Assembly: GCA_016125005.1 (NCBI GenBank)
Contig: WGMQ01000054.1
Location: 1-64,000 of the forward strand
Origin: a bacterium
Lineage (GTDB): Bacteria > Sumerlaeota > Sumerlaeia > SLMS01
Reading direction: 5' to 3'
DNA: 64,000 nt
Below, one piece after another: positions 5,739-52,612 of this stretch. The translations under genes and the position numbers were made by a program. The stretch's first letter is position 1, and every line of letters starts with the position of its first letter. The notes under the pieces are model-generated. The model worked only from the letters and a program-made list of their open reading frames with translations. It was not told where the DNA came from and ran no database searches.

Positions 5739-8700
5739 ATGGCTCGAGGACCGGCCACTTTTGCGCATGAACCACAGGCACAAAAGCGTGTGATTGATTC
5801 CACACTGCGCGTGGCCTATATCTGCGCGCGATTCCCCAAATTGTCTGAGGTTTTTGTCGCCAGGGAACTGGAAGAACTCCGTGCTCAGGGCGTGCAGGCA
5901 GAGGTTTACTCGCTGCTGTCCGGCGAGCAGGGTGGGATGAGCCCTGAGGTCCCCGTCCAAGGCCGCCCTTCGCTGACGCGAATGATTGGGAATCACCTCC
6001 GCGAGCTGGCTTCGCATCCGGTAGGATACCTCAGAGCGCTCGGGATTGCACTGAGTGCAATCGGTGGCGGGCCGCGGGAACTTGCTGAGGGCGTCTATCT
6101 GTTTGCGGTGAGCGGGTCCTGGGCGGGGGCGATCCGGTCCTCCGGCGTTTCCCGAATTCATGCGCATTTCGCCGGTGCCCCAACGACAGCGGCCTGGCTG
6201 GTCTCCACGATGACCGGCCTACCCTTCAGCTTCACCTCCCACGCAAACGACATATTCGTCAAGCCATGGGCCTTGAATGCCAAAATTGAGTACTCAACCC
6301 ATGTTGTGACGGTTACTGAGTACAACCGGCGCCATCTGGCAAAGCTCTGTCCCGGGGCGGAAGGTAAGCTACACGTGCTGCCGACGGGCCTTCCGAGCGA
6401 CGAGATGGCGAGCGCATCTGAGCGGTCGGTAGAGCCGGGATTCGTGCTGGCGGTCGGTCGGCTGGTTCCCAAAAAGGGGTTCGCTGCCTTGATCGAGGCC
6501 TTCGCCCTGCTCAGGGAGAAAGGAACCGTCGCCCGCTGTGTGATCGTGGGAGATGGTCCCGAGCGCCATCGCCTGTCAGCACTCGTCAAGACTCTTAACT
6601 TGACTGACTGCGTGGAGCTGTTGGGTGCGCGAGGCAACTCGGAGGTCGCTGACCTTCTTGGCCGCGCCGCGGTTTTCGCCCTACCCTGCCGCATCGCAGC
6701 GGATGGGGATCGTGATGGTCTCCCCCACTCCATCATGGAGGCGATGGCGGCGGGCGTGCCGGTGGTTTCCACTCGGGTCGTGGGGATCCCTGAACTGGTT
6801 GAGGACGGTGTCTCCGGCCTTCTTGTGGAGCCCGATGATGGGGCGGCTTTGGCCGATGCGATTGAGCGCCTGGTGACGGATCGTCAACTGGCGGCTCGAC
6901 TTGCAGCCGCCGGGAAAGTTCGGGTCAGGGAAGTCTGTGACCTGACGAGCATCGTGGCGCGACTGAAGGCGCTCTTCAGCACGGCGACCCTTCGGAGTGT
7001 GGGCGTGGCTTTCCTGCTCGGCGGGCTGACGGTGGGGCCTGCGATGGCAGCGGAACTCTTTCCTGATCCAGACCTCAAGACGCCTGAGAAGTTCCTCCGC
7101 CCCTACTCCAATTTCGGAAAGAGTGATCCGGTCATTGGCTGGAAGTCCCGTATCGAGGCGGGCCGAGCAGTCGTGACCGGCGACCAGCGGCAGCCCGCCG
7201 CACGAGTGGGCGTTCGCACGGTTCCGGTGCCGCTCGGCACGGGCGACTATCTGGCAAAGATTCGGGTGAAAGGCTCGGGCATCCGCCGGTTGGGGCTCTA
7301 TGCGATTCTGGTGGATGCGTCGGATAACGCCCTGGCGACGCAGGAACTTGTGGGGCCCGCGGGGGATTTCGACTCCGAGTTCGCGATGGGACTGACCGTC
7401 CAGCCTGAGCAGGCGAAGGTTGAGGCGCGTGTCATCCTGTACGTGTTCCATGACGGAGTCGGCACCTTCGAAGTGACGCATATAAGCATCGACGATGCGA
7501 TTGGCGCGGAGCGGAAAGTGGCCCCGCGACGCGACCTGAAGCCGATCTTTCAGCGTTTGGTGCTGCCCGGTCCGCTGTTCAGCGCCGACTTCCCGTCGAG
7601 CAATACGGCGCTTCTGCCGGGCGAGCGGCGCTTTGTGGACGGCGCGGTGAGTGCCGACGGTGCGGAACTCTTCACCATGTCGAATCGCGAAGTGGCGCTC
7701 TCCTGGGAAATGGGAGTCGAGGCCCCGACGCCGTTCTGGCTGACGCCGACCGAGAGCCCTGCACCGGGCGATCACGTGGTCAGCCGCGTGACGGGCATTC
7801 CTTCCGCAGGCGTTGAAGCCCTCCCTCCCCTGCCTGCCGAGCGGGGGGTTTACCTGTTTTACTATGGCGCCTATCGCTACGGCAAGAAACCGCGCGACCT
7901 GAAGAAGGACGCGGCTGCGCTGGCGAAGTTGCGCGAGGATGGGGTGACCGGCATCGGATTCTGGGATGACTACGGGCTGGATCTGCACCGGCTTCAGGAG
8001 GGCAAGGCTCTCGACGGCTCCTACATGGTGACGATGGCGGAGGAGTACAAGAAGGCCGGCTTCACCTCCCCGATGCTGTTCTGGGTCCTCGGCGGTCTGG
8101 AGCGCGGCCGCGTGGCGTGGACCAGCGGCAGCGAAGAGGAAATGCGTCTATACATCGAGGCGCTGAAGCCGTGGATCGCACAGGCGCGGGAGAAGCTGGG
8201 CGACATCCCGCTTTGGGTGTGCCCCGCGGACGAGCCGGACGACACGGATCGGCAGGCGCTGGCCCTCAAGCAAGCGACGCTTTGGAACTCGATGATGGAC
8301 GGCGTGCCGAACTTCAACACGACGAACTGGCAGACAGCGCGCCGCCTGGCGGGAAACACGCATCTGGTGCTGGGCTCGGGCTCGCTCCCTTCCTTCGAGG
8401 AGGCGGCGAAGCTGAAGGTGGACATGAGCTATTGCAGCCTGGATGCGAACCTCCCACCGATTCGCTATCGGTACCTGGGCGGTGTCTATACATGGGCCTC
8501 GGGGATTCCGTCGCAGGGATACTGGCACGCGGAGTCCATCGCGGGGAAGATCACGAGTGACCTTGACGGTCACCTGGTCGACTTCGTGGCGCGCGAGAAC
8601 AGCGGCGAGCGCCTGGGCGTTTGCTACGCACAGTTGCTGAACGGGGTCGAGGACCTACGGCTGCTGTGCGCGTTGGAGCAGAAGGCTTCCAGCAGCGGCC

Positions 8701-8897
8701 CCCACGCGGCCGCGATTCGCGCCTTTCTTGAGGGCATCAGGGCCAGTGTCATTCCCACGGACCGCCTCGCGGCGCCGTGGAACGATGCCGCTCACTACGA
8801 GACCGTTTTTGGCAAGGGACGAGAGCTTTGGCGCCTTGCATCACAATCGTCAGGGACAAACGAAACTAACACAACCGCCCAGGAGAGTGCTCAATGA
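5739..8897 (+). CDS. Fusion: family 4 glycosyltransferase + secreted glycoside-hydrolase-like domain
   Basis: One open frame of 1,052 aa. Residues 20-412 are a GT-B family 4 glycosyltransferase: FPKLSEVFV at the N-terminus, AVGRLVPKKGF, VGDGPER, and the E-x7-E-like DGLPHSIMEAMAAG nucleotide-sugar site. Residues about 421-438 (GVAFLLGGLTVGPAMAAE) look exactly like a signal peptide with an Ala-X-Ala cleavage site. Residues 440-1052 are a separate module: a beta-rich carbohydrate-binding-like part (to about 620), then a TIM-barrel-like part with GIGFWDDYG and CPADEPD, whose acidic residues could be catalytic. The two halves belong in different compartments, so this is either a genuine fusion with the second half pushed across the membrane, or two genes merged by a lost stop or a sequencing error. 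It starts one base after the previous stop and overlaps the next gene by ATGA. Confidence 0.75.
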   Translation: MARGPATFAHEPQAQKRVIDSTLRVAYICARFPKLSEVFVARELEELRAQGVQAEVYSLLSGEQGGMSPEVPVQGRPSLTRMIGNHLRELASHPVGYLRALGIALSAIGGGPRELAEGVYLFAVSGSWAGAIRSSGVSRIHAHFAGAPTTAAWLVSTMTGLPFSFTSHANDIFVKPWALNAKIEYSTHVVTVTEYNRRHLAKLCPGAEGKLHVLPTGLPSDEMASASERSVEPGFVLAVGRLVPKKGFAALIEAFALLREKGTVARCVIVGDGPERHRLSALVKTLNLTDCVELLGARGNSEVADLLGRAAVFALPCRIAADGDRDGLPHSIMEAMAAGVPVVSTRVVGIPELVEDGVSGLLVEPDDGAALADAIERLVTDRQLAARLAAAGKVRVREVCDLTSIVARLKALFSTATLRSVGVAFLLGGLTVGPAMAAELFPDPDLKTPEKFLRPYSNFGKSDPVIGWKSRIEAGRAVVTGDQRQPAARVGVRTVPVPLGTGDYLAKIRVKGSGIRRLGLYAILVDASDNALATQELVGPAGDFDSEFAMGLTVQPEQAKVEARVILYVFHDGVGTFEVTHISIDDAIGAERKVAPRRDLKPIFQRLVLPGPLFSADFPSSNTALLPGERRFVDGAVSADGAELFTMSNREVALSWEMGVEAPTPFWLTPTESPAPGDHVVSRVTGIPSAGVEALPPLPAERGVYLFYYGAYRYGKKPRDLKKDAAALAKLREDGVTGIGFWDDYGLDLHRLQEGKALDGSYMVTMAEEYKKAGFTSPMLFWVLGGLERGRVAWTSGSEEEMRLYIEALKPWIAQAREKLGDIPLWVCPADEPDDTDRQALALKQATLWNSMMDGVPNFNTTNWQTARRLAGNTHLVLGSGSLPSFEEAAKLKVDMSYCSLDANLPPIRYRYLGGVYTWASGIPSQGYWHAESIAGKITSDLDGHLVDFVARENSGERLGVCYAQLLNGVEDLRLLCALEQKASSSGPHAAAIRAFLEGIRASVIPTDRLAAPWNDAAHYETVFGKGRELWRLASQSSGTNETNTTAQESAQ

Positions 8898-10309
8898 CGT
8901 TAACATGGAGAACGATTTTCGCTTCGCTGCTGCTGGCGATCGCGGTTGTCGGCAGTTCGGGGTGCGGTCCGCGGGACCACACACCGTACAAGACGGAAGG
9001 CATCCCGCTGGCGCAGTACGAGGGGCGCCCGGAAAGCCGTCGCTATCGCACAAACCAGATGGACCCAGCGACTTCGGATACTCTGGCGGCAATGCACCTG
9101 CCGCTGCCGGTTCTGCCTCGTGTCTCCGCCGAGGAGGCTGCGGCGGCGGCGAATCAGGGCTATGAACTTGGTCCCGGCGACGTGTTGGAAATCATCTATC
9201 AGCTGAAGAGCGAGCGCAGCAACGAGGCCTACCGCCTGGAAGTGCTCGACGCCTTCAAGGTGACGTTCCTCTACACGCCGAATCTGGATGCAGAGGTCTT
9301 CGTGCGCCCCGACGGCAAGGCGAACCTGCCCATGGTTGGTGACATCCAGGCGGCGGGACGCAGCACAGAGGAGATTCGCGAGGAACTCGTCAAGGCATAC
9401 AGCGAGCAGCTTCGCGATCCGGTGATCCAGGTGCTGGTGACGCGGTCGAACAACGCGATCGAAGAACTCAAGCGCGCCATCACCACCGCGCCGCGTGGAC
9501 AGAGCCGTCTGACTCCGGTTCGTCCGGACGGTTACATCTCCCTGCCGCTGATTGGCGACATCAAGGCCGCTGGTCGGACGATCCCTGACCTCAGCACGGA
9601 GATCGTTGACCGTTATCGTCAGGCGAGCGTGCGAAACATCGACGCGACGGTGGTGCTGCTGGAAGTCAAGGCGCCGGTCATCTACGTGATGGGTGAAGTG
9701 ACCCGTCCCGGCCCGATGGTACTGACCACCCCGACGGACATCTGGCGGGCGGTCGGCGAGGCTGGAGGGTTCCTGGAAAGCGCGAATCCCCGCGAGGTTG
9801 TCCTGGCCCGTACAACAGACGGCAAGGAAGGGCGCTATACGCTCGACTTCAACCGCTGGTCCACCGGCGTTTCTCCCGATGAAAACGTCCAGCTCAAGCG
9901 CGGCGATGTGGTTTTTGTGCCGAAGGAGGCTGGTCGTTACGTCTACGTGATGGGTGAAGTGGAAAAGCCGGGCCGCGTGCGACTCGAGCCGGGAGAGCAG
10001 ATGCGCGTCAGCCAGGCCTTGGCCATGACCGGTCGCATCAAGAGCTCGGCGCTCAAGCGTCGCGTGCTGCTGCTGAGCCGCAACGGCCGGGAGCCGGTCG
10101 TGACGCAGGTGAACCTCAAGGAGATCATGCACCCGCGGCACTACGAGCAGCTGGGTGACTATCCGCCCCGCGACCCGATCGTGAAGCCGGGAGACGTGGT
10201 GTATGTGACCTCCTCTGGTATCGGCGACTTCAACACCTTCGCGGAGAATTGGTTCCGCAATGGCGTCTGGACCGTGTTCCCATTCATCGCGACGTACAAC
10301 CTGAACTGA
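8894..10309 (+). CDS. Polysaccharide export outer-membrane lipoprotein, Wza-like
   Basis: Product of 471 aa. The N-terminal signal ends in a lipobox (SSGC, Cys 24), so the protein is lipidated. Residues about 93-175 are the Poly_export (Wza N) domain (YELGPGDVLEI, then VFVRPDGKANLPMVGDI). A second copy of the RPDG...LP..GDI.AAGRT unit follows at about 207-255, so part of the module is internally duplicated. Two SLBB beta-grasp domains start with IYVMGEV (about 262) and VYVMGEV (about 349). Family members form the outer-membrane channel for capsular or exopolysaccharide. The start overlaps the preceding stop (ATGA), and the Wzz-like partner follows immediately, as is usual for this export pair. 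The final C-terminal helix (NWFRNGVWTVFPFI) is amphipathic, as expected for the Wza pore helix. Confidence 0.9.
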   Translation: MTLTWRTIFASLLLAIAVVGSSGCGPRDHTPYKTEGIPLAQYEGRPESRRYRTNQMDPATSDTLAAMHLPLPVLPRVSAEEAAAAANQGYELGPGDVLEIIYQLKSERSNEAYRLEVLDAFKVTFLYTPNLDAEVFVRPDGKANLPMVGDIQAAGRSTEEIREELVKAYSEQLRDPVIQVLVTRSNNAIEELKRAITTAPRGQSRLTPVRPDGYISLPLIGDIKAAGRTIPDLSTEIVDRYRQASVRNIDATVVLLEVKAPVIYVMGEVTRPGPMVLTTPTDIWRAVGEAGGFLESANPREVVLARTTDGKEGRYTLDFNRWSTGVSPDENVQLKRGDVVFVPKEAGRYVYVMGEVEKPGRVRLEPGEQMRVSQALAMTGRIKSSALKRRVLLLSRNGREPVVTQVNLKEIMHPRHYEQLGDYPPRDPIVKPGDVVYVTSSGIGDFNTFAENWFRNGVWTVFPFIATYNLN

Positions 10310-10332
10310 CCCGGACGGACGGAACGATACCC

Positions 10333-11793
10333 ATGACAACGAACGAAAATCGCAAAGCATCCAACGGGTCGGGTGAAGGCACGCCGCAGATCGACCTTGA
10401 AGTCCTGTTGAACATCCTCTTCGCGGGGCGGACCAAGATCCTGTTCGCCCTGCTGGTCACGGTGGGCGCGACAGCCCTGCTGACACTGCTGGCGCCGCGG
10501 ACCTATGAGTCATCAGTCAAGCTGATGGCCGAGCCGCGCCGCGAACAGACTCCCTATCAGTTCGAAATCCGCTCCTATCAGGACCGGAAGGTGTTCCTCG
10601 AAACGGTGAAGGAACTCCTGATCAGCCAGTCGGTCCTGAAGGCCGCGGTCGCCCAGATCGACAAGCGGCCAGAGGACACGGTGACGGCGCATGATGCAGA
10701 GAAGCTTTCGAGGCAGATTCTGCTCCAGTCCCGCGCAAGCCTGACCCGCAGCCTGATCGGCGGCGATGGCATCGGTGAGACGAACACTTTTTTCGTCACG
10801 GTGCGTGACAGCAACCCGCAGCGGGCAGCCACCGTTGCCAACACGATCGTGGAGAAGTACCTGGAGCTGAACAGCAGCATCCGAAGCAAGCAAGTGCAGG
10901 AGGCGACGCGGTCGCTGCGTACCAGCGTCGACGAAACAACCCGCCAGGTGAAGGACGCCCATGCGGCGTTGGTGGCCTTCGAATCGGAGGCGGGTCCGCT
11001 GCTGCCGGAACTAATGAACATCGACAAGGCCAACATCCGCGTTTTCCCCGAACTCGAGGATCTGCGCACGGCCTTCGAGGATGGTGAGATCACCCTGGCC
11101 GAGCGCCGCGAGCGCGTTGAGGTGCTGGAGGAAGCCTTCGCGGATACCGAGGACGGCGCCTTCCCGGTGCTTCCGGAGTTCGCCTACGAGGCGATCCCGG
11201 CGCTTCGCGAACTGACCACGCGCGTGGCCGAGCTCAACATGAAGGCGAACTCGCTGCTCCCCTTCTACCTGGAGGAATCACGCGAGATTCAGAACATCCG
11301 CACCGAGCTGGAGCTGACCCGCAAGGACATCCTGAAGCACGCGTCGGCGCTGGTCGCATCGGAGCAGCAGGCGGTGAAGATGCTCGAGGCCTCGCAGGCG
11401 GCCCGCAGCAAGTCGCTGGAAGGCTACGACGAGAAGCTCATCAAGCTGAGCCAGCTCAACAGCCGCTATCAGGAGCTGAAGCGGGACTACAGCGCGAAGG
11501 CACGCGCACTGGACAGCCAGATCCAATCGCTGGCAGAGGCCGACTCCTCCGCGGCGGAAAAGCTCGGCGGACAGGCCACGATCACGGTGATCGACAAGGC
11601 GGTCGAGAATGGAACCCCTGTTTCACCGCGCCCCCTCGTCAACATGCTGGTCGCACTGGTGGTGGGCCTGCTGCTCGGCCTGCTGGCCGTGTTGCTCGGT
11701 CACTACACGAACCCTGTCTTCGTTCACCCGCGCCAAGTTGAGCTGACCACCGGACTTCCCGTGGTCGGGATCCTCACGGAGGAGAAGTCCTAA
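10333..11793 (+). CDS. Chain-length determinant / polysaccharide co-polymerase (Wzz/GumC-like)
   Basis: Product of 486 aa from ATG 10333; the longer frame from 10249 overlaps the Wza gene and is rejected. The layout is typical of the family: a short cytoplasmic N-terminus, TM1 at about 35-55 (ILFALLVTVGATALLTLL), a long periplasmic coiled-coil region (55-440, rich in Glu/Lys/Leu/Arg) and a Pro-flanked TM2 at about 446-466 (PRPLVNMLVALVVGLLLG). There is no C-terminal tyrosine kinase domain; the neighbouring gene carries a remnant of one. Wzz/GumC proteins set polysaccharide length and bridge the inner membrane to Wza. The stop overlaps the next start (TAATG). Confidence 0.88.
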   Translation: MTTNENRKASNGSGEGTPQIDLEVLLNILFAGRTKILFALLVTVGATALLTLLAPRTYESSVKLMAEPRREQTPYQFEIRSYQDRKVFLETVKELLISQSVLKAAVAQIDKRPEDTVTAHDAEKLSRQILLQSRASLTRSLIGGDGIGETNTFFVTVRDSNPQRAATVANTIVEKYLELNSSIRSKQVQEATRSLRTSVDETTRQVKDAHAALVAFESEAGPLLPELMNIDKANIRVFPELEDLRTAFEDGEITLAERRERVEVLEEAFADTEDGAFPVLPEFAYEAIPALRELTTRVAELNMKANSLLPFYLEESREIQNIRTELELTRKDILKHASALVASEQQAVKMLEASQAARSKSLEGYDEKLIKLSQLNSRYQELKRDYSAKARALDSQIQSLAEADSSAAEKLGGQATITVIDKAVENGTPVSPRPLVNMLVALVVGLLLGLLAVLLGHYTNPVFVHPRQVELTTGLPVVGILTEEKS

Positions 11794-12461
11794 TGTCCCA
11801 GTCGAATCCCACCACGATGTTCGCCATGCGGCGAACGGTCTTTGGCAGCAACCTGATGGACACGATCGAGAGCATGGCGCAGTCGAGCGGAACAAAGGGC
11901 GGTCTGAAGATCGGTTTCTTCCCGTGCGGACCCGAGTCCTTCGACAACCGGGCACTGTCCGAACTCGCCATCAGCGCCATGAGTGTGCGTCGCAAGGTCG
12001 CGACGGTATACTTGGATCCGGCGATCATTCCGGCGAAAGGCCTGGACGAGGACGTGGAGGCGCTGGAGCAGTTCATGGATGAGACGTCGATGAAGGAGAT
12101 TCCACGCCGCCGGAGTCTGGTGCTGCGCTGCTCGCCAGCGGCGCCGGGCACTTCCGGCGAAGCCACATCGCGCGGCCTGTACTCACTGGTGTCTCGTCTC
12201 GCGGCGGACTACGATCTGGTTTTGCTGGTGGCCAGTGACACATTGAAGTCGAGCCTCGGTGTGGCCGTGGCAAACACGTGCGACCAGTGCTACCTCTTCG
12301 TTCATCAAGGGACGACCGGGATCGGCGATGTGGAGCGTGTCCGTCAGCGTCTGGAGCTCTCTGCGGCGAAGGCCTGTGGGGTCATCTATACAGGTCGCAG
12401 CCGCTTGATTCCCGACTGGCTATACAACCAGCTCTTCGCGAGAAACGCCGCAAGGAAGTGA
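11793..12461 (+). CDS. CpsD/BY-kinase-like protein lacking the Walker A motif
   Basis: Product of 222 aa. Placement directly after a Wzz/GumC gene and the overall pattern match the cytoplasmic ATPase half of bacterial tyrosine (BY) kinases: a beta strand KIGFFPCGPES where Walker A should be, YDLVLLVASD in the Walker B/A'-like position, and a late CGVIYTG strand corresponding to the usual GVVLN. The phosphate-binding Gly-Lys-Ser/Thr is absent (FPCGPESFDNRA) and there is no C-terminal tyrosine cluster. ATP hydrolysis is therefore unlikely by this route. A structural or regulatory role at the Wzz protein is inferred. The alternative, an unrelated protein with a similar fold, cannot be excluded. 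Confidence 0.6.
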   Translation: MSQSNPTTMFAMRRTVFGSNLMDTIESMAQSSGTKGGLKIGFFPCGPESFDNRALSELAISAMSVRRKVATVYLDPAIIPAKGLDEDVEALEQFMDETSMKEIPRRRSLVLRCSPAAPGTSGEATSRGLYSLVSRLAADYDLVLLVASDTLKSSLGVAVANTCDQCYLFVHQGTTGIGDVERVRQRLELSAAKACGVIYTGRSRLIPDWLYNQLFARNAARK

Positions 12462-12466
12462 CCCCG

Positions 12467-13939
12467 ATGGCAGGTGTTGAGGGCAGCGAGATGAGGGGCG
12501 TCGCGGATGCGTCGCCCCTCAAGGGGTTCGGTGCCCTGCTTGCCAGCAGCTTGGCGGCGCGGGCTCTTGGGCTGCTCAAGCTCCTGCTCTTTGCACCATT
12601 GCTCGGCCCTGCGGCCTTCGGGGCATTCCGCCTCGCTTCAAGCGCCGCCAACATCATGTTCTCGCTGGCCGCCCTCGGCATTCACACCAGCTATCTCCGC
12701 TACCTTCCTGAACTCCCGCGCAACGCCCAGCGCCGACGCTATATGCTCCGGTCGCTGGCACTCTCCATGGGCTGCACGCTGTTTGTGGCACTGCTGCTGC
12801 AACCGGTGCTCCCGCGGGTGACGATGTTCATTTTCTCCGAGTCGACAGATCCGGTACTGGCGCTTTTGCTCTTGGTGGCGCTGCCGACGATCCTACTCTA
12901 CCAGTCGGGTACGGGAATCACGCGAGGCCTCGGGCTTTTCGCAGCCTCGGCGTTTGGCGAGGTGCTGCAGAACTTCCTCCACGTGGGGCTCGGTCTTGCT
13001 GCAATCATGGTCCTTGGAGTTTCCGCGTCGGCCGTCTTCGGCGCCATGCTCGTCGGCTTCCTGGTCGCGGGAGTCCTCATGTTGGCGATGGGACTTCGGG
13101 CGACACCCAAGGATGCCGGCGACGCAACGTTACCAGTCGGCTTCGGCGGGCGCGTGCTACGATTCTCCGTGTGGTACGCCCTGATCCCGGTCTGCCAGTA
13201 TCTGTTCGACTTCACGGATCGCTGGGCGCTGGCGCGCTTTCGAGGACTTGAAAGCGCGGGGGTGTACTCACTGGTGCCGCTTTTCACGGGGGGGATGATC
13301 GTCCTCGGGACAAGCCTGGCCCCGGTTGTTGCGCGAACGTCGACGTTGGCTCTCTCATCGAAGACCGGCCCTGTCTATACAACGGTGTGGTCGTCAATCT
13401 CCATCGCGGTGCTGGGATCGCTGGTGTACTCGGTGGCCATTCGGCTCGGCGAGCCGCTGATCTGGATGGTCGCATCGGGACAATGGGCTGCCGCAAGTTC
13501 GACAGTCCCGTGGTTTCTCGTCTACTTTTCGTGGTTCAATGCGTACTATGTGATCGGAGCCATCGCCACCGTCGAGGAAGCAACGTGGGTACACTTGGCA
13601 TCGCTCGGCGTGGGTGGAGCGATGAACCTTGCGCTGAATCTGATTCTGGTTCCCTCGCATGGCATGGAGGGGGCTGCATTTGCCACGTGTGTCTCGATCC
13701 TCGGCACAATCGCCACGCACGTGGCCTTTGTCCAGTTCCGTGGCATCCCGATACCGGGCAGGTTCTGGGTCGCCTTGGCGCTTCCGCTATGCGCGCTCAT
13801 GCCGGTCTGGGCGCTCGTGCCGGTGTGCATCCTTGCTGCGGTACTGGCGGCAGGAACCAGCCTGATTGTTGATGCTCAAGGGAAGGCGGAGTTGCTTGCC
13901 TACTGCCGTGGAATCGTCAGGAGGTTCCGTCGCCCATGA
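12467..13939 (+). CDS. Polysaccharide flippase, Wzx/MATE-like
   Basis: Product of 490 aa from ATG 12467, preceded by AAGGAAG at good spacing; a longer frame from 12278 runs through the previous gene and is rejected. The sequence is almost entirely hydrophobic with about 12-14 transmembrane helices, starting with the family-typical GALLASSLAARALGLLKLLL and containing LGPAAFGAFRLASSAAN. Wzx proteins move lipid-linked repeat units across the inner membrane. It sits between the Wza/Wzz export genes and further glycosyltransferases and ends in an ATGA overlap with the next gene. One octamer (13373) lies inside it. Confidence 0.85.
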   Translation: MAGVEGSEMRGVADASPLKGFGALLASSLAARALGLLKLLLFAPLLGPAAFGAFRLASSAANIMFSLAALGIHTSYLRYLPELPRNAQRRRYMLRSLALSMGCTLFVALLLQPVLPRVTMFIFSESTDPVLALLLLVALPTILLYQSGTGITRGLGLFAASAFGEVLQNFLHVGLGLAAIMVLGVSASAVFGAMLVGFLVAGVLMLAMGLRATPKDAGDATLPVGFGGRVLRFSVWYALIPVCQYLFDFTDRWALARFRGLESAGVYSLVPLFTGGMIVLGTSLAPVVARTSTLALSSKTGPVYTTVWSSISIAVLGSLVYSVAIRLGEPLIWMVASGQWAAASSTVPWFLVYFSWFNAYYVIGAIATVEEATWVHLASLGVGGAMNLALNLILVPSHGMEGAAFATCVSILGTIATHVAFVQFRGIPIPGRFWVALALPLCALMPVWALVPVCILAAVLAAGTSLIVDAQGKAELLAYCRGIVRRFRRP

Positions 13940-17372: not shown

Positions 17373-20300
17373 CTATTGCAGCATCCAGCCGTTCGTCGCT
17401 GCGTCGATTGGCTGAGGAGCCAGCGTCATGCCGGTGAAATCCACGAGGCTGTTGCCGATCGTGAGCGTATTATCGAACTCGCCCAGCGATTCGTCGTAGA
17501 TCGCCAGCGTCGATGGGAGCGACCCGAAGACGCTCTCGTGAAGGGCCTTGGCGATGAAAAGCTGGCGCACCTCCCGAGAATAGTGCATGGCGATTCTCCC
17601 GCCCGGTTCGAAGGGGGCGGCGGTGATCATGCGCACCTGACGGGAGGTCCTGTCTATGCGACAAAGAACGACCGTCGCTCCCCCAGTTGACGCTGTATAG
17701 ACAACTCCGGGTGGGCCGAAAGCCAACCCCTCCAGTGGGGCAGAAACACCGCTGAGGGTGAGACTCCGGCGGCTGCGCTCTGAGGCGCCATCGCGCTCGA
17801 GCAATGCCACTGAATAGGTGGCAGAATCCTCCAGCAGGCAGGCCCACGCGCTTTCTGCCGGGTCCCAGGCGAAGCCAACGATTGGCAGTTGCGGTGCCGC
17901 GAGTGCGAGCGGCGAGGTGGCCAGCAGTTCGCCTGTCGCTGCATCGAACTGATGAAAGCGAGGGATTCCACCTTGCTCCACTGTATAGACACGGTCGTCG
18001 CCGCCCGCCAGATAGTCAGCATCCGTCAGGTGGAGGAATGGCTGATAGTGGACGCGACGTCGCGCGATGGCGGGATCCTCGGAGGTGGTGTGAAGCACGA
18101 CTCCTCCCGGCGCGAGGAACATTGCAGGGCGCCCGATGAACGGATCCTCATCCTCGATCGTGATGTCTCCGGGCGACGAAAGAACCGCGATCTCCGGCAC
18201 CGACGGCGTGAGCAAGAATCGGAAGCTGCGATCATCCTGGGCCGCACTGTTGCCGAGAAGACTAAGGGGAAGAAGAACTGCGGCCGCATCGGCGAGAATG
18301 GGCGCTTCGCCGCCGGGCGCGAGGTAGTCGACACCCTCCGAAGCGGTTCCCGACTGAGAATTGAACTGGAGCGACGCTGCAGCTGTGGGCGGAGGAACGA
18401 GGTCCACCGTCACGGTTCGCGATGTTGGCGTGTCACCTTCCAGCAGGGACTGCGGACGCAGCAGGGCGATAGAGTGCCCGGCTGGGATTCGCTCCGTGAG
18501 GATGCGCCAGTCGTCGATGAGGAAACGATCAATGGGAAGGTCGCGCAGCCGAATGCGAAAACGGACGTCGGAGCGAAGCGCCACCGCATTGCTAGCATCG
18601 ATCACGAACTCGGCGGGAGAAGCGGCCGAGCTGGCCGTGAGGCTGTCGCTGGTCGGGGCCAGCAGCGGTTGCCACCGATTGCCCCCGTCGACGCTGTACT
18701 CGAGAAGAGGAAGAATGGCGGTCTTCGAGCGGTCATACTCAAGCGCCTGGCGCCATTCGATGCGCACCCAAGCATTGGCGCTGAAGTTGAAGGACGGTGT
18801 CTCAAGGGCGAGGTCGGGAAGCGGAGAGCCATCGGCGCTGGTCAGCTCGATCAGGGGAAGCGTCCAGTTCGGTGACGCGCCGACCTCCAGCACCGTCCCA
18901 CGCATCGTGTAGCTTTGCGGCCCGGGCGGGTCGATATGCCGCACCGACCAGGCGAGCGGGTCGCCGCCACCGAGTGGATGATCCTCTAGCGCGTAACGCA
19001 GGACTCGGTTGGTGTCCTGTATAGACACGCGCGCAAGATCAATGGAGGCGGCTGCAGGAGCCTCCACAGTCAGAGTGGCCGCAAAGTCCAGCGCGCCGGA
19101 AGGAAAGCCGTCAGAGGCCACCGTATAGACAGTCGTCGTGCCGGGGGAGTTGGCGGGAAGCGCGATGATCGTGGCTTGGGGGAGCCGATAGTTCCGTCCC
19201 TGCGACGCCGCGCCGTCGATCGCTCCCACGGTGACGGTGAGTGGCTGGTCGATGGGTGGATCCGTCACGATCGACAGCGGAAGAGGTGTCTCGTCGGTCA
19301 GCGGCTCGTCCAGCACGACATCGGCAGCGAAGGAAACGTAGGTGGCCGGAATGCTGGCCGGTGGGAGGATTCCCCACACGGGTCGCTGCGAAACAGGGTA
19401 AAGCAGGCTGTCGCTGGCAACGGCATTCGACGAACCGATGAGCGGGCGAACAGCACCCGAAAGGTGGTTAACGAGCCAAAGCGTGGGACTGATAGTACCG
19501 GTGCTGTCGGTTGCATTGCCGGGAATGTATAGACGCCCGCTTGCGGTCGAGAAAGCGGCGTCAACTGGTGTCGCATCGAAGTGGGAAGCGGGCAGCGTCG
19601 CGACGCGTTGACCGATCCCGGTCGCGGTATCAGCGCGCCAGAACTCGCCCGGAGTCATCGCATAGAGGGCACCGGTGATCGGGTGGATGGCGAAGCTAAG
19701 CCAATCGGCGGGTATAGACAGCTCGGCCAACGGGGAAAGCGCAGCGCTCGCCACGTCCACGCTGTATAGACGCGGTGCGTCGCCAGATACAGAGAGCGCC
19801 AGCAGACGGTCGCCTGAGCGATCATAGTCAATGCCACCGACAGTCTCTCCCGAGGCAAGTGCGGTCAGCAATCCAACCCGGGTAGGCAGAAGCGACGTGG
19901 GATCGATCAGCGTCAGGGCGACGCCATCTTCCTCGGTTGCGACCAACGCGAAGCGGCTGCTGTCGAGGAATGCACCTCCGATGGCTCCTGTATAGACACC
20001 GGGGCGTTCGACATAGGATCCGAGCACATTTCCCGGATCGAACTCGAAGGTGCCGCTCCCACTGACCCCAAAAACGTAGCCCTCGGGGAGAGGATCATCG
20101 TTGAGGATCGTCACGGGAAGTCGGTCGGGAACGAGTGTCACGCCACCGAGAGGCTCGAGCACGGTAAGGTTGACGGAGAGAAGCTCGCTGCTCTCGCGAA
20201 CGGTGTCGTTGAGGACCGACAGGTTGACGGTCAGCGTGCTGGCACCGCCTCCGGCAAAGGTCAGCGTGCCGACCAAGGGCACATAATCCCGGCCCGAGCG

Positions 20301-20525
20301 CGCAGCGCCGTAGACGCCGGTCGCGATGCCGTCCTGAGCCTGGTAGCGGACGCGGACCTGACTGCCGGTGGGAACAGGCGGATCGACGGTGAAGCGGAGT
20401 TGAAGCTGGCTGGAGCCGACGTTGCCCTCGGCCATCGGATTCGCCGTGGCGGTAACGGTATAGGGCTGGGCCAGGGCACCCAATGGAAGCAGCGCGGTGG
20501 CGATGAGCAGGCCGGTCCTTATCAT
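17373..20525 (-). CDS. Secreted Calx-beta-domain protein
   Basis: Product of 1,050 aa with signal peptide (MIRTGLLIATALLPLGALAQ). The start is supported by GAGG seven bases upstream. Calx-beta-like sandwiches are visible at about 22-147 (ending VTILNDD), 400-510 and 720-800 (EGDTPTSRTVTVDL... ending ITIEDEDPF). The stretches at 150-395 and 800-1040 have repeated short strands with turn sequences such as GGIDYDRSGDRLLALSV, suggesting beta-propeller-like folds. The last residues are NGWMLQ, with no recognisable sorting signal. The role is likely extracellular, perhaps matrix-associated given the polysaccharide cluster beside it; that is inference. Eight of the window's 32 GTCTATAC octamers lie in this gene, in three different frames. 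Confidence 0.8.
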   Translation of the reverse strand: MIRTGLLIATALLPLGALAQPYTVTATANPMAEGNVGSSQLQLRFTVDPPVPTGSQVRVRYQAQDGIATGVYGAARSGRDYVPLVGTLTFAGGGASTLTVNLSVLNDTVRESSELLSVNLTVLEPLGGVTLVPDRLPVTILNDDPLPEGYVFGVSGSGTFEFDPGNVLGSYVERPGVYTGAIGGAFLDSSRFALVATEEDGVALTLIDPTSLLPTRVGLLTALASGETVGGIDYDRSGDRLLALSVSGDAPRLYSVDVASAALSPLAELSIPADWLSFAIHPITGALYAMTPGEFWRADTATGIGQRVATLPASHFDATPVDAAFSTASGRLYIPGNATDSTGTISPTLWLVNHLSGAVRPLIGSSNAVASDSLLYPVSQRPVWGILPPASIPATYVSFAADVVLDEPLTDETPLPLSIVTDPPIDQPLTVTVGAIDGAASQGRNYRLPQATIIALPANSPGTTTVYTVASDGFPSGALDFAATLTVEAPAAASIDLARVSIQDTNRVLRYALEDHPLGGGDPLAWSVRHIDPPGPQSYTMRGTVLEVGASPNWTLPLIELTSADGSPLPDLALETPSFNFSANAWVRIEWRQALEYDRSKTAILPLLEYSVDGGNRWQPLLAPTSDSLTASSAASPAEFVIDASNAVALRSDVRFRIRLRDLPIDRFLIDDWRILTERIPAGHSIALLRPQSLLEGDTPTSRTVTVDLVPPPTAAASLQFNSQSGTASEGVDYLAPGGEAPILADAAAVLLPLSLLGNSAAQDDRSFRFLLTPSVPEIAVLSSPGDITIEDEDPFIGRPAMFLAPGGVVLHTTSEDPAIARRRVHYQPFLHLTDADYLAGGDDRVYTVEQGGIPRFHQFDAATGELLATSPLALAAPQLPIVGFAWDPAESAWACLLEDSATYSVALLERDGASERSRRSLTLSGVSAPLEGLAFGPPGVVYTASTGGATVVLCRIDRTSRQVRMITAAPFEPGGRIAMHYSREVRQLFIAKALHESVFGSLPSTLAIYDESLGEFDNTLTIGNSLVDFTGMTLAPQPIDAATNGWMLQ

Positions 20526-40228: not shown

Positions 40229-42763
40229 TCAGAGTTCGCGTATTGTCTTGAAGAAGACGCGGGCTTTTGGCGGGGTGCCGCGCTCTGCGGACGGCACGAA
40301 CTGGGCAATCCAGCCATCGGGATCGATCTCAAAAACGAGCGGACGATCGATGGTGGTGAGCTGGATCGTGGCCCGCGATTCGGGACCGAGCCACTCCTTG
40401 CCAGTGATGGGGTCGCCTTCGGTCTGGAGACGCCACGGGACGGGCATGGTACCGGTTCCGCGATTTTCGATCTCGACCGAAACACGATAGGTCAGCGCGC
40501 GCGTTCCCGTCTCCCGGAGGAGGAGCGCGTCGCCCTCCAACACCGCGTAGTCGGGACACGCCCCGTGATCTATCCAATCCGCAAAGAACCAGTCGAGTGG
40601 CTTGCCGTAGGCCCGCTCCGCTCGCGCGCGGAACGCCGCGAGCGTCAGGTCATCGACTTCATCGAGCGACCGGAGAAAGCCGAGATACGGCTCCTCGCCC
40701 AGCACCCCGCGCAACATGTGGTGAATCGCCAGGATGCGGTGGACGGCGATGGCGGAGTGATCCCCGGGGAGGAGAGGACCACTCCAGAGTTCGCGCTCGC
40801 CCTTCGCAAGATCGAAGGGGCGTCGCTCGCGCAACGGTGCATTCCAAGGGACAAAGGCGAGGTCGCGACGCGTCTTTCGGGTGAGGTCGCCGTGCTTCCC
40901 CTCTGCATACGCAAACCGGTGGAGGTAGGCCGCCAGTCCCTCGCCGAGGAAATCTGGATACTCGATGGAGTTGTAGCGTGCCAGATGGAGGCGTCGCAGG
41001 GATTCACGATGGATGGGCTCGAACAGCGCATCGAAGAGAGGACGGGTGGGCTTTTCAAAGTCGTCGATGGTAGGAAGCGATTCCGAAAGTTCGTTCAGTA
41101 GAAACGATGAGAGGGCGAAAGGGTCGGGACTCTGCGCGTCGGGAATTTCGTATAGATTGATAGATCCCCCGCGGGGAAAAATCCGGGCTAGACGGGCGTA
41201 CTCTACTTCGTACAGACGAGGGAACTGGGAGGCGAAGGTGCCACGTTGATTCAGGGTGCGCAGGCAGAGCGCGATGCTTCCCGAGGTACATAAATCGACG
41301 GAGTTGGATGCAACCAGAGCGGCCGGGAGCCCGCGTCCGTTGCTGCGCAACAGGATGGTACCGTCGGCCTGGGGCTCCGATGTCGCCGTGCTGCAATTCC
41401 ATTCGAGGGGAGCGGCGGGGGGAACCTGAATTGTATAGACGGCCATCTCGTTGTGCGGGAGGGCGGTGCCGTCAGGCTCGACGGTATAGCTCGTCCCCCA
41501 CCACGCTCCCAGCGGTGCAAAGCGATGAATACCCGGGTGCCAGCACTCCTCCCAAACACGGCGGCCACGAATGCTGGGGCGCAGGAGGAATCCGAAGCTC
41601 GTCGCCTGATCGGCCGGGGTAACCTGAACGGCACCCGTCCCGCCCTCGAGTCGCAGCGGAGAGACGGAGCCTCCGTCGGCATGGGCAACCTCGAGGGCCG
41701 AGCCAAAGCTGATGGCGAAGGGCTCTGTCGGAGCCTTCGTATAGACGAGGGTTAGGCGGATCGGCTCCGACGCGGAAGGATCTAGGACGATCTCGCGAGA
41801 GTGAAGCGGCGGCGGGGACTTGAGGGCCGTGGGTCGCGAGAGATCGCTGCCACCGGGCATGAATCCGAGTGTGGCCTCGCCGAAAGCAAGGGGACCGCGC
41901 GCGATCACGATCGCGGCAGCGAGCCCCACAACGGCGGCGGCGGTTGCGATCATGCCGTTCAGCCTGAATGTCGCCGTAATGCCGTATAGATAGCTAGACG
42001 CAGGGATTCCTGCCTCATCGACGCGGAATCGGCGCAGTAGGACGGTGGCGATTGCGATGAGCGCAGCGCCGAAAAGCGTCACCCAGGTCGCGTCCCCCAC
42101 TAGAAGTGGCGCGGGGATCAGCACGCCGAGTGACGGGCTGGCGAGCTGAAACAGATCGGCCGGGTCGGCAATCCGGAGCCTCCAGAAAATCACGGGAGAG
42201 AGAAGCAGCGCTGAACCGGCAAAGGCCAGGGCGTCGTTCCGAAGAGCCAGACGCGAGAGCAATCCCGCGCCTGCTCCGGCGACGAGGGTTGGGAGCGCGA
42301 CGACCAGCAGGAAAAAGGCGGAGGGCACGATGTTGATCGAGAGGCCCTCGCGGAGCGCGCCAACCAGTGGCCAAGCCGTATAGACAACTGCGAGCGGAAA
42401 CAACGCGGCCAGGACCGTCACCGTCCAGTGGAGGCACTGCACGAAGGGAGAGCACACCGAATGCTGAAGCAGCACCGCGGCCCGCGAGCGTTCCCAGCAG
42501 GCCACCGCGTCTGACGCCATGATGGCGGCAAGGAGGGCGAGCGTGACACAGAACGGCAGCACGCCCGAGGCGCCGCCGGGGAAATGGACCGTGGCGCCGA
42601 GACCGAAACCTGCGCCGCGGCTAAACCACCAGGCGGCGACCAGAAAGCCGAGCGCAATCACACGCCACCGCCAGCCTCGTGCGACCCGGCGCAGTTCGAT
42701 GAGCATCGACGAGGTACTGGAGGCGATCAGGGAGGGTGACCCGATGGGGGGGATTGCTTTCAT
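40229..42763 (-). CDS. ABC-2 permease-like / M1-peptidase-like fusion without zinc motif
   Basis: Product of 844 aa. Residues about 25-300 contain roughly seven transmembrane helices of ABC-2 permease type. A periplasmic region (about 320-844) ends in an M1-aminopeptidase-like helical domain: YNSIEYPDFLGEGLAAYLHRFAY corresponds to the family's W-L-N-E-G-x-A segment, and YLGFLRSLDE...KPLDWFFADWID resembles the M1 C-terminal part. The HEXXH zinc motif expected before the Glu is missing, so peptidase activity is doubtful. No dedicated ATPase is adjacent; the NatA-like one is two genes away. The stop side is 53 bases from lepB; the start overlaps the dinB stop by four bases. Confidence 0.65.
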   Translation of the reverse strand: MKAIPPIGSPSLIASSTSSMLIELRRVARGWRWRVIALGFLVAAWWFSRGAGFGLGATVHFPGGASGVLPFCVTLALLAAIMASDAVACWERSRAAVLLQHSVCSPFVQCLHWTVTVLAALFPLAVVYTAWPLVGALREGLSINIVPSAFFLLVVALPTLVAGAGAGLLSRLALRNDALAFAGSALLLSPVIFWRLRIADPADLFQLASPSLGVLIPAPLLVGDATWVTLFGAALIAIATVLLRRFRVDEAGIPASSYLYGITATFRLNGMIATAAAVVGLAAAIVIARGPLAFGEATLGFMPGGSDLSRPTALKSPPPLHSREIVLDPSASEPIRLTLVYTKAPTEPFAISFGSALEVAHADGGSVSPLRLEGGTGAVQVTPADQATSFGFLLRPSIRGRRVWEECWHPGIHRFAPLGAWWGTSYTVEPDGTALPHNEMAVYTIQVPPAAPLEWNCSTATSEPQADGTILLRSNGRGLPAALVASNSVDLCTSGSIALCLRTLNQRGTFASQFPRLYEVEYARLARIFPRGGSINLYEIPDAQSPDPFALSSFLLNELSESLPTIDDFEKPTRPLFDALFEPIHRESLRRLHLARYNSIEYPDFLGEGLAAYLHRFAYAEGKHGDLTRKTRRDLAFVPWNAPLRERRPFDLAKGERELWSGPLLPGDHSAIAVHRILAIHHMLRGVLGEEPYLGFLRSLDEVDDLTLAAFRARAERAYGKPLDWFFADWIDHGACPDYAVLEGDALLLRETGTRALTYRVSVEIENRGTGTMPVPWRLQTEGDPITGKEWLGPESRATIQLTTIDRPLVFEIDPDGWIAQFVPSAERGTPPKARVFFKTIREL

Positions 42764-45445: not shown

Positions 45446-48400
45446 TTAGTTGGCGGTGGAGGGACCGGCGGAGCCAAGGCCCCGGCGAATTCGGAAGCCG
45501 ACGATGGTGATGTCGTCGCTCTGGGCGGAGGTGCCGGTGAACTGGCGCACGCCTTCGCGAAGTCGCTTGATGTCAGCTTCGATGGAATGGCCGCTGTCGG
45601 CAAGCGTGGAAAGGATGCGCGGGAGCCCAAACTCCTCGCCGACGGCGTTTGCCGCCTCGTCGACGCCGTCGGTGTAGAAAACCACCTCGTCGCCGGGTCG
45701 GAGTTGGATGGAAGCTTCCTCGAAGTGCATGTCAGGAATAATGCCGATCGCGGGGCCGAGGGCCTCGTCAAGTTCCGTGGCGACACCGCGCCGGATGAGC
45801 ACCGGCGAGGGGTGACCAGCGCGCGTGTAGGAGAACTCCAGCGTCTCCAGGTCAAGGATCCCGTAGAGGAAGGTGAAGTACTGGGTGATCTCCAGGTTCA
45901 TCGGGAAGCGGCGATTCATGGTCTCGGACACCTCCGCAGGCGAGCAGACATGGACGGCGCCGTCCTCCTCGCGCAGGAGCGCGCCCGATCCGTCCAGCAC
46001 GGCCGTCATCGAGCGGCTGAGCGACATGGAAAGCAGCGCCGCGGGGACACCGTGGCCGGAGACGTCGAGGATATAGATGCCGACCTGCTTATCGCTGAGA
46101 CGGATGAAGTTGAACATGTCGCCGGCAACTTCCTCGCAGGCGTTGAAGAGCCAGCCGAACTCGACGTGGGGAATCTCGAGCTTTTCCTGGGGAAGGCGTG
46201 AATGCTGGATGCGGGCCGCGAGCTTCAGGTCTTCCTTGATGCGAGAATGGGCGTCGGCCAGTTGCTGGGTGTAGCGGCGCCGCTCCTCCTCCGCCTGCTT
46301 GCGCTGGATCGCGTTCGCAATCTGGGAGGAGACGAAGGTCATCGTCTGCACGTCTTCCTGCTGGAAGTGACGGTCGCTGGTGTAGCTCTGCAAAATCACC
46401 GCGCCGATCACACCGTCCTGGGTGATGAGCGGCACACCGAGCCAGTTCTTCGTCGGCTTGCCGACAGGGGTGACTTCCCCGCGAGCGTACATGGCGTTGA
46501 GTTCCCCTTCGTCAACCAGGAGCGGCTTGGCATTCCGCACGATGTAGCCGGTGAGGCCCTTGCCCACGGGGCGGGTGGCGAGATTCAGGTCCACGCCGGA
46601 TTCGCGCGCGTAGGGGAAGCTGATGGTTTCCGCGTCGCGCTCGTAAAGCGCCACGTATAGATTGGTGGTGTCGATGACGGCGCTGAGGCTCTGGTGGAGG
46701 CTTCGGAAGAAGTCCTGCAGGTCAGCGCTCGTGGCGGCGGCCTGGGAGATTTCGTAGAGCACGCGATTGAGTTGCTCGGTGTGCTTGCGAAGCGTGATGT
46801 CCTCGAAGGTACCCACGAATCCGGTCAGCTGGCCGAAGTCATCCTGCATCGAGGCCCAGCGAATGCTGACCCAACGCAGTTCGCCATCGGCGCGCAGGAC
46901 CCGGGCCTCGCGCCCAACAGAGGACCCTTCATCGCGGGAGAAAATCCACTCGATCTTGAACGTCTGGCGATCCTTGGGGTGAATAGCCTCCAGCCAACCT
47001 TCGCCGAGCGATTCGGCGAGGCCGCGCCCGGTGATCTCCTGCCAACGCTTGTTTGTATAGATGCAACGACCGTCGGCGTTCACCTGAAAGACGCCGATGG
47101 GCGACGAGGAACTGAGCGAGCGGAAACGCTCCTCGCGCTCGCGGAGGGCCCATTCCACGTCGCGGCGCTCGGTGATGTCGTGCACCACGCTCTGGAATCC
47201 GTTGGGGCGGCCGTCCTCGAAAAGGAGTGTGGTGGTTTGCTCGATCCAGCGCCGACTTCCCTGCTTGGTGATGATCGGGAATTCGTAGACGGATTCTTTC
47301 TCACGGGCGCGCAGTTGCCGCAGATAGAAGGTCCGCACGGTGGCGCGCCATTCGTCATCCACGAGCATCGAGCAATTGTGGCCGATCAGTTCCGATTCCG
47401 AGTAACCGGTCAGCCTGATGATGGGCGGGTTGACATAGGTGAATTTACCCGGGATGTCCGTTGTATAGACAATGTCGCCCGCCTCCTCGATCATGCGGCG
47501 ATAACGCTTCTCGCTCTGGCGTAGCTCATCGCGGGCGTGCTCGCGTTCGATGGCGCTGGCAATGTGGCCCGAGACGAAGTTCATCACCCATGCATCGCGC
47601 CGTGTGTACTCGAGGCCTTCCTCGTGGCTGTGCACCGCCATGAGGCCCACCATCTCGCCTTTGCTGATGAGGGGAACGCCGAGCCAACTGACACTGGGGC
47701 GACCCGTGTTCGCACGGATGCGTCCTTCGTTTGTCAGGCGACGGAAATCCCCCGCGGCCAGCAGCAACGGCTTGCGGGTCTCCAGCAGAAGGCTGACGAG
47801 TGACTTGGCCACGGGAAGCGTCCGCTGTTCGCGGTCCCCGTAGAGTTCATCGACCGAGAATACGATTCGATAGGTTTCGTGTCCGGGGTCGAGCAGCGCG
47901 ATGTAGAAGTTCGTGACGTCGAGCACCTGAGAAAGGGACTCGTGGATGGCGTTGTATAGCCCTTCCAGATCCTGGGACTGGTTCACCGCCTCGGTCAGGT
48001 GCTGGAGGGAGCGCTCGAGGCGCTCCTGACGGCGCTTTTCGGTGAGGTCACGAATGATGGCGGTGTACGAGACTTCATCGCCCAGGTGGAACTCGCTGAT
48101 GTCGATCTCCACGGGGAAGAAAGTGCCATCGTGCGAGAGGGCGGAGAAGTGGCTGGTGGATCCCGGTTCTCTATCCCGATTTGCCTTCGCAAGGAACTCT
48201 TGGAATCTGGCGCCCTCCACCGCCTCGAACGCCGGGATCAGCGCACGAATGTCGCGCTGGATGGCCTCGGAGTGCTTGTAGCCGAAGAGGCGTTCCGCGG
48301 CACTGTTGAAGAGGTCGATCTTTCCGTGCTCGTCGAAGGTAACGATGGCGTCGGCCGCGTTGTCGATGATCGCGCTGGTGCGGGCCTTCTCGAGCGTGAT

Positions 48401-48733
48401 CTCCATGGTGCGCTCTCGGACACGCTCCTCCAGAGCCATGTTGTTGATGTGAAGGCGTGCCTGCACGTAACCCAGCCGTGCACACAGGGCCGCGAAGATC
48501 AGCGGCAACCCATCGAACAGGTAAAGCATGGCGTTGTCGAGATGCAGCGTATGAATGGTCACAAGGGACCAGGGCAGTTCCTCGGCGTAAGCCTTGATGC
48601 CCCAGGCGACAACGTTCAGGAGGGCCCCGAGTCCGAAACCATAAGCAGCGTACAGCGCGATGATCCGAAGCTGGATCTCCCCGGCGGCGCGACCAAATCG
48701 TTCCTCGGCCAACTGTCCAAAAATGCGTTTCAC
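45446..48733 (-). CDS. Multi-sensor PP2C/SpoIIE-type phosphatase (PAS-GAF-PAS-PAS-GAF)
   Basis: Product of 1,095 aa from GTG 48733, which has AGGA eight bases upstream; a TTG at 48844 would add 37 residues. Two or three hydrophobic helices lie at residues 28-95. Then, in order: PAS (IIDNAADAIVTFDEHGKI), GAF (NAIHESLSQVLDVTNFYIAL), PAS (MIEEAGDIVYTTD), PAS (SSSPIGVFQVNADGRCIYTN), GAF (SLHQSLSAVIDTTNLYVALY), a coiled linker and an RsbU/SpoIIE phosphatase domain (ARIQHSRLP, EEVAGDMFNFIRL, LDVSGHGVPAALLSM, YTDGVDEA, SDDITIVGF) with the metal-binding aspartates present. Such enzymes dephosphorylate anti-anti-sigma factors. None is in the window. It is 24 bases upstream of the NtrC-type gene. Confidence 0.9.
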   Translation of the reverse strand: MKRIFGQLAEERFGRAAGEIQLRIIALYAAYGFGLGALLNVVAWGIKAYAEELPWSLVTIHTLHLDNAMLYLFDGLPLIFAALCARLGYVQARLHINNMALEERVRERTMEITLEKARTSAIIDNAADAIVTFDEHGKIDLFNSAAERLFGYKHSEAIQRDIRALIPAFEAVEGARFQEFLAKANRDREPGSTSHFSALSHDGTFFPVEIDISEFHLGDEVSYTAIIRDLTEKRRQERLERSLQHLTEAVNQSQDLEGLYNAIHESLSQVLDVTNFYIALLDPGHETYRIVFSVDELYGDREQRTLPVAKSLVSLLLETRKPLLLAAGDFRRLTNEGRIRANTGRPSVSWLGVPLISKGEMVGLMAVHSHEEGLEYTRRDAWVMNFVSGHIASAIEREHARDELRQSEKRYRRMIEEAGDIVYTTDIPGKFTYVNPPIIRLTGYSESELIGHNCSMLVDDEWRATVRTFYLRQLRAREKESVYEFPIITKQGSRRWIEQTTTLLFEDGRPNGFQSVVHDITERRDVEWALREREERFRSLSSSSPIGVFQVNADGRCIYTNKRWQEITGRGLAESLGEGWLEAIHPKDRQTFKIEWIFSRDEGSSVGREARVLRADGELRWVSIRWASMQDDFGQLTGFVGTFEDITLRKHTEQLNRVLYEISQAAATSADLQDFFRSLHQSLSAVIDTTNLYVALYERDAETISFPYARESGVDLNLATRPVGKGLTGYIVRNAKPLLVDEGELNAMYARGEVTPVGKPTKNWLGVPLITQDGVIGAVILQSYTSDRHFQQEDVQTMTFVSSQIANAIQRKQAEEERRRYTQQLADAHSRIKEDLKLAARIQHSRLPQEKLEIPHVEFGWLFNACEEVAGDMFNFIRLSDKQVGIYILDVSGHGVPAALLSMSLSRSMTAVLDGSGALLREEDGAVHVCSPAEVSETMNRRFPMNLEITQYFTFLYGILDLETLEFSYTRAGHPSPVLIRRGVATELDEALGPAIGIIPDMHFEEASIQLRPGDEVVFYTDGVDEAANAVGEEFGLPRILSTLADSGHSIEADIKRLREGVRQFTGTSAQSDDITIVGFRIRRGLGSAGPSTAN

Positions 48734-48869
48734 GGGACGATTCCTGACTGCCTCCCACGGCAGTTGTCGCTCAGCAAACCAGTCGGCACAATCAGCGAGA
48801 GCCGGTAGGAACGCAAGGACGGATGAGGCGGGGACGACGCGCAACGCAATTCACCCGCCCGCCATTTCC

Positions 48870-48899
48870 TTGACAGCCTTGGGCGGCATTGAACTTGAT
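48870..48899 (+). promoter_or_regulatory. Candidate promoter for the processing-protease gene
   Basis: A perfect -35 TTGACA (48870-48875) precedes a weak -10 CTTGAT (48894-48899, spacer 18), about 60 bases before the ctpA-like start. The -10 match is poor. Confidence 0.35.
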
Positions 48900-48961
48900 G
48901 GACTAGTTTTACCGGTGGTCGCGATTGCGCCACTCTGACCCGGAGAAAGCAGGAAGATCGC

Positions 48962-50518: not shown

Positions 50519-50521
50519 GCC

Positions 50522-51297: not shown

Positions 51298-51400
51298 AGG
51301 GACCCTCGTTCAGAATGTGGGCACTGCTTGGCGATGAGCACCGCTCCTTCTGCCAACCGATGTGCCGACAGTAGAATCCTGATTTGCGAGCGAGGCAGCG

Positions 51401-51754: not shown

Positions 51755-51756
51755 CA

Positions 51757-52428: not shown

Positions 52429-52549
52429 GGGACGGGGCACTGCGGCTGCAATCGAGCGCATGACCTAGGCGCCAACGCCCCCACCAAATCTGCGGCCTCT
52501 GCGTCATCTGCGGATGGTCTTGGACTTTTCCCCCACCCCGCGTTTTGCC

Positions 52550-52580: not shown

Positions 52581-52612
52581 GTCCGCCTGAACGGCGCAGG
52601 GGCGTTCCATCG

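Follow-up and report, generated by a model that had tools for sequence, protein, structure and literature searches.

We identified GTATAGAC (reverse complement GTCTATAC) as a short DNA word that is enriched genome-wide and irrespective of reading frame, restricted to one clade, saturating at silent sites, linked in its density to codon bias, and accompanied by competence genes. With a probability of roughly 0.6, and judging from sequence comparisons, we propose that GTATAGAC, with its longer consensus YGTATAGACR, would be what a natural-transformation system in one family of Candidatus Sumerlaeota uses as its uptake word.

In the window, i.e. the whole 64-kb stretch of DNA analyzed, the word occurs 32 times where dinucleotide shuffles predict 0.2. 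The whole genome G000 (4.69 Mb, 112 contigs) holds 1,078 copies, or about one per 4.3 kb, compared to 22 copies of a backwards-read control; with 576 forward and 502 reverse copies, there is no chromosome-scale orientation bias. Among the 8-mers in 1.46 Mb of G000, GTATAGAC ranks first, at 68 times the expectation of a second-order Markov model. Gene-level figures for G000 given below likewise refer to 1.46 Mb out of 4.69 Mb and use our own gene calls, and all genomes examined are metagenome assemblies. Analysis of the flanks of genomic copies extends the word to YGTATAGACR, which is nearly palindromic (YGT-A-TA-G-ACR), and the Y...R preference recurs in intergenic copies and in the majority of frames. 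Enrichment, of about 18-fold, extends to the fully palindromic GTATATAC, with the asymmetric GTATAGAC about six times commoner, and GTCTAGAC shows no enrichment in the G000 sample. In a 1.1-Mb sample of G000, the variants GTATAGAT (n = 74), which retains the Y flank and not the R flank, and GTATATAC (n = 42) are enriched as well. AGTTCCTC/GAGGAACT are about 5-fold over-represented in the G000 sample, far below GTATAGAC, which probably reflects codon or peptide usage.

Within genes, the word lies predominantly antisense (253 copies vs. 62 sense, 80%), both in plus-strand genes (120 antisense, 33 sense) and in minus-strand genes (133 and 29), while long contigs mix both orientations about equally (26 and 20 copies on contig C15). 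One sense frame of GTATAGAC contains a stop codon, and one antisense frame, which holds nearly half of the genic copies, reads GTC TAT AC (Val-Tyr-Thr). The antisense excess in genes is thus mostly due to the stop-bearing sense frame together with the very permissive Val-Tyr-Thr frame. Relative to what codon usage predicts, all five stop-free frames hold 20 to 169 times as many copies, with sense copies enriched 46- to 64-fold; intergenic enrichment is 16- to 25-fold. At fully matching amino-acid sites in frames other than Val-Tyr-Thr, both orientations are filled comparably, without a consistent leader. Altogether, enrichment in every stop-free frame, in both orientations and in non-coding DNA indicates a word of double-stranded DNA rather than an RNA or protein motif.

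The Val-Tyr-Thr frame also reveals how far the word has shaped codons. Of 156 Val-Tyr-Thr tripeptides, 146 are written GTC TAT AC and hence are the word, as is every Val-Tyr-Thr in the called genes of the window. No comparable preference for GTC TAT is found where Val-Tyr precedes Ser (9/45), Ala (18/66), Val (19/56) or Gly (8/53). Furthermore, the tripeptide is 3.5 times as frequent as amino-acid composition predicts. As such, the word is present nearly always where silent changes suffice, and many other copies must stem from amino-acid replacement. The recoding of a single tripeptide in 146 of 156 cases provides an unusually clean gauge of the force that a DNA word exerts on codons and proteins.

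What varies across genes is how frequently amino-acid changes have made the word. Taking codon bias as a stand-in for expression, word density declines about threefold across fifths of genes ranked by codon bias, being 0.37/kb where bias is weakest and 0.12/kb where it is strongest. Val-Tyr-Thr is written as the word in 56 of 61 cases in the weakest codon-bias quarter and still in 19 of 21 in the strongest, which excludes synonymous avoidance there, and the excess of the tripeptide over composition is seven-fold in the weakest quarter and 1.8-fold in the strongest. The claim of the initial annotation that the word avoids highly expressed genes thus holds for density, but not for the choice among synonymous codons. 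A Poisson model identifies codon bias (z = -4.2), gene length (z = 5.0) and the presence of at least three membrane spans (z = 4.3) as predictors of word count that act separately; an N-terminal signal contributes less (z = 2.1), and the content of Val, Tyr and Thr contributes nothing. The 287 G000 genes shorter than 600 bp together carry just 7 words, a much lower density than that of long genes, and the first 400 bp of genes are somewhat poorer in words. By crude heuristic calls, density is 0.40/kb for predicted membrane proteins, 0.29/kb for secreted and 0.20/kb for cytosolic ones. Hence, the suspected enrichment in secreted proteins exists, yet membrane proteins exceed it and other gene kinds lead too: the list of word-rich genes is also headed by a WD40 protein, TPR proteins, a histidine kinase, a glycosyltransferase and a solute-binding protein.

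A supposed avoidance of conserved genes was not borne out. Across 166 ortholog pairs with the relative G001, density shows no trend with identity from <40% to >70% (0.30, 0.23, 0.30, 0.28 and 0.26/kb; Spearman -0.08, P = 0.28; 52 words). Local protein permissiveness at word sites was rejected as an explanation as well, the flanks of word sites being no less conserved than random sites in a weak test on 52 words (P = 0.29). The proposed rule that the word collects where protein constraint is weak therefore describes the pattern in part.

The gene of a predicted secreted Calx-beta protein contains eight words, all antisense to the gene, and its codon bias ranks at the 16th percentile. The eight positions reported earlier for these copies are all exact, and a direct count confirmed both stretches described as word-free (Table 1).

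Table 1. Features of the 64-kb window that bear on the distribution of GTATAGAC (positions within the window).
Feature	Position	Strand	Remarks
Gene of predicted secreted Calx-beta protein, 1050 aa, eight words	17376..20525	-	Pfam PF03160, E = 7e-14; weak DUF6923
GTATAGAC copy	17695..17702	+	coding strand GTC TAT AC (Val-Tyr-Thr)
GTATAGAC copy	17983..17990	+	Val-Tyr-Thr frame
GTATAGAC copy	19019..19026	+	V-S-I-Q frame
GTATAGAC copy	19123..19130	+	Val-Tyr-Thr frame
GTATAGAC copy	19527..19534	+	Arg-Leu-Tyr frame
GTATAGAC copy	19712..19719	+	L-S-I-P frame
GTATAGAC copy	19764..19771	+	Arg-Leu-Tyr frame
GTATAGAC copy	19990..19997	+	Val-Tyr-Thr frame
Gene ranked second by word count in the window, three words (41433, 41739, 42378)	40232..42661	-	all in Val-Tyr-Thr frame
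Word-free stretch	47471..58177	.	S41 peptidase, McsA-like, McsB-like and ClpC genes among contents
Word-free stretch	8492..13372	.	polysaccharide export and Wzz-type genes

The contrast that had been drawn between this cluster and a 10.7-kb desert survives on one side only. When as many words were placed uniformly at random on the same contigs (1.46 Mb of G000) in 500 runs, the densest cluster within 2303 bp averaged 4.4 words and none of the runs reached the observed eight; the Calx-beta cluster is beyond chance and the densest that we saw. Gaps of at least 10,707 bp, however, are as frequent as chance predicts (11 observed vs. 10.4 simulated), and we thus rejected the longer word-free stretch as a true zone of avoidance. 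Genes lying wholly within it encode zero Val-Tyr-Thr, and some of its genes have a strong codon bias, those of the S41 peptidase and of ClpC both ranking at the 98th percentile. Since the window carries about twice the word density of the genome (32 vs. ~15 expected, Poisson P = 6e-5), gaps in it seem more remarkable than they are. Overall, the word is clustered, with 145 gaps shorter than 1 kb vs. 68 simulated. An origin of the Calx-beta cluster in a composition rich in Val, Tyr and Thr was discarded, given that the content of these residues has no predictive value for density. Eight words are also found in a WD40-repeat gene (L021:1111-8343; contig C15, about 61.1-68.3 kb). A spacing of exactly 285 bp separates three of these words, which were probably copied by duplication of internal repeats rather than having arisen independently.

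Although the word is distributed genome-wide, clade-restricted and similar to uptake sequences, as the initial annotation had supposed, one property of G000 departs from that expectation: density is 0.11/kb in intergenic DNA vs. 0.25/kb in coding DNA, and 93% of the sampled words lie inside genes. Weak protein constraint alone does not predict that intergenic DNA, which is under the least such constraint, is thinner in words than genes. One guess is that the TATA-containing word is avoided near promoters. In G001 the relation is reversed, with 0.155/kb in intergenic and about 0.08/kb in coding DNA. In G001, copies between genes form inverted or overlapping pairs, GTATAGACATCTATAC for example (C4:110469, 120769; C7:129230, 261291), which resemble paired uptake sequences; inverted or overlapping pairs are found in G000 too, and are relatively more numerous in G001. 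One word sits within an intergenic GC-rich terminator-like hairpin, GCCCCGGCGCCGTATAGACGCCGGGGC (L079:9441, contig C51).

Among the relatives of G000 in its family, five of six carry 247-969 copies compared to 7-33 of the control, with 930-969 copies in G003 and G006, whereas the sixth, G004, with 26 copies vs. 39 of the control, has lost the word, and no comparable k-mer was found in 158 kb of G004 that could be a replacement. In the sister family of the same order, the word is at background level. The 10-mer YGTATAGACR is not clearly enriched in 33 other Sumerlaeota genomes, two of which show a weak excess (G015, 32 vs. 12; G020, 34 vs. 7). Two Candidatus Sumerlaeota records of the isolate series CSSed165cm bear the word (6 copies in 15.5 kb, 2 in 6.3 kb); they are among the best named relatives of a 1,247-aa protein of the window, in a list from which the closest records may be absent. 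The simplest reading of these counts is that the word arose with the window's family and was subsequently lost once. Individual copies appear short-lived. The alignment of genes with G001 covered 52 words, 7 of which are at the same site in both genomes, all of them Val-Tyr-Thr, and most unshared sites face a different amino acid in G001. Such mostly unconserved positions point to rapid turnover, as expected of elements that come and go.

G000 encodes a type IV pilus, ComEA, ComEC and DprA. In all 12 genomes of the order we found ComEC as well as ComEA-like and PilT-like matches, the latter two assigned by profile match only, and ComF-like matches that are weak (12/12). The full-size DprA class is present in 11 of the 12, the exception being the word-less G004, which nonetheless keeps ComEC, a ComEA-like match and PilT-like genes. 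As the G004 assembly is 80% complete, this absence may be a gap and is a hint only. Competence genes are also present in the word-less sister family, so that such genes do not discriminate between genomes with and without the word.

We thus propose a mechanism in which a putative DNA receptor on the type IV pilus would prefer word-bearing DNA, ComEA and ComEC would import it, and DprA and RecA would recombine it into the chromosome. Pieces bearing the word would enter more often, such that mutations making the word would spread by biased transmission, a form of molecular drive. In genes, words could spread freely at codons that can be changed silently, which would explain the nearly exclusive use of GTC TAT AC for Val-Tyr-Thr. 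Spread by amino-acid change would be limited to proteins tolerating it, which could be why words are dense in genes that are long and weakly codon-biased and in those for membrane and secreted proteins; the Calx-beta gene would be an extreme case. In this scheme we infer the specificity of uptake, the receptor and the causal role of drive.

To our knowledge, Neisseriaceae and Pasteurellaceae are the only groups for which self-recognizing DNA uptake words have been established, and our literature search found no paper tying Sumerlaeota to competence or uptake sequences. Like the DUS of Neisseriaceae, which is read by the minor pilin ComP, the Sumerlaeota word is a roughly 10-mer present in hundreds to thousands of copies in both orientations in one family only, with an antisense excess in genes, occasional inverted pairs, and a type IV pilus and ComEA/ComEC present. 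It differs in that word and phylum are unrelated and 93% of the sampled copies are genic. With the USS of Pasteurellaceae it shares the copy number of hundreds to thousands, and as a parallel to the scarcity of USS in strongly constrained coding sequence its density falls with codon bias, though not with ortholog identity; it differs in the unrelated word, the scarcity of intergenic copies in G000 and the clustering of copies, those of H. influenzae being relatively even. The higher genic than intergenic density in G000 is the reverse of that in Neisseria and Haemophilus, while G001 shows their usual pattern. The antisense form of uptake sequences is commoner in genes (PMC2346458), neisserial DUS lie mostly between genes and include inverted pairs (PMC2397512), and 65% of H. 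influenzae USS are located in ORFs, with non-coding DNA over-represented (PMC1939737). In Pasteurellaceae, USS are under-represented in strongly constrained coding sequence, and sites in H. influenzae are relatively even (PMC7811141). Cyanobacterial HIP1 (GCGATCGC) is, like the Sumerlaeota word, a very frequent short genomic word of undecided function; unlike the asymmetric GTATAGAC, it forms a perfect palindrome and has been linked to DNA methyltransferases (PMC4390886).

Because the 10-mer is nearly palindromic, the main rival explanation is a nucleoid-organizing or chromosome-segregation protein: GTATAGAC would be the binding site of this intracellular protein, and copies would be kept for chromosome organization. 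The enrichment of GTATATAC fits this explanation, as do enrichment regardless of frame and orientation and the lower G000 density in intergenic DNA and near gene starts, as if promoter-near sites were disfavored. Yet few positions are shared with the relative even at this spacing of the word, which bespeaks rapid turnover; furthermore, GTATAGAC greatly outnumbers the palindrome, GTCTAGAC is unenriched, and both the codon-bias link and amino-acid replacement suggest drive rather than use at fixed places. We consider such a binding site unlikely. A Chi-like or repair-associated recombination signal would agree with an asymmetric 8-mer at this frequency. The orientation of Chi sites tracks replication direction. 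That of GTATAGAC, however, follows the gene strand, and long contigs hold both orientations in similar number, so that a Chi-like orientation was rejected; the sister family lacks the word besides, and we deem this explanation improbable.

We give very little credence to a role of the word as RNA (GUCUAUAC in mRNA) or as an element akin to a promoter, with TATAGAC serving as a -10 box in antisense orientation. The 80% of genic copies that are antisense do imply that mRNA mostly holds GUCUAUAC, but this bias stems largely from the stop-bearing sense frame and the permissive Val-Tyr-Thr frame. Moreover, sense copies are themselves strongly enriched, and the comparable filling of matching sites in both orientations in the other frames led us to reject mRNA function or an antisense promoter as the cause of the bias. 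Next to negligible, finally, is the probability that the word merely results from a preference for certain codons or dipeptides. The concentration of nearly half of the genic copies in one codon frame would suit it, but Val-Tyr before Ser, Ala, Val or Gly has no preference for GTC TAT, the other frames are more enriched relative to codon usage than the Val-Tyr-Thr frame, and the word is enriched between genes too. Such an artefact is thus contradicted by the enrichment in all frames and by the Val-Tyr controls.

Returning to the uptake word, we see about an even chance that it represents a third, independently evolved code for the uptake of self-DNA, in an uncultured candidate phylum, which would have rewritten almost every Val-Tyr-Thr and forced many replacements, and which, unlike the two known codes, is denser in genes than between them in G000. 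If true, this distant phylum would show that such uptake codes evolve repeatedly, and a comparison of family members that differ in copy number (about 1,000, about 250 or none) would offer a new test bed for molecular drive versus selection. Apart from the word, we observed that the McsA-like (UVR motif), McsB-like (guanido phosphotransferase) and ClpC genes of the window adjoin (52613-54219, 54353-56866), and their arrangement suggests a possible arginine-phosphorylation protease system outside Bacillota.
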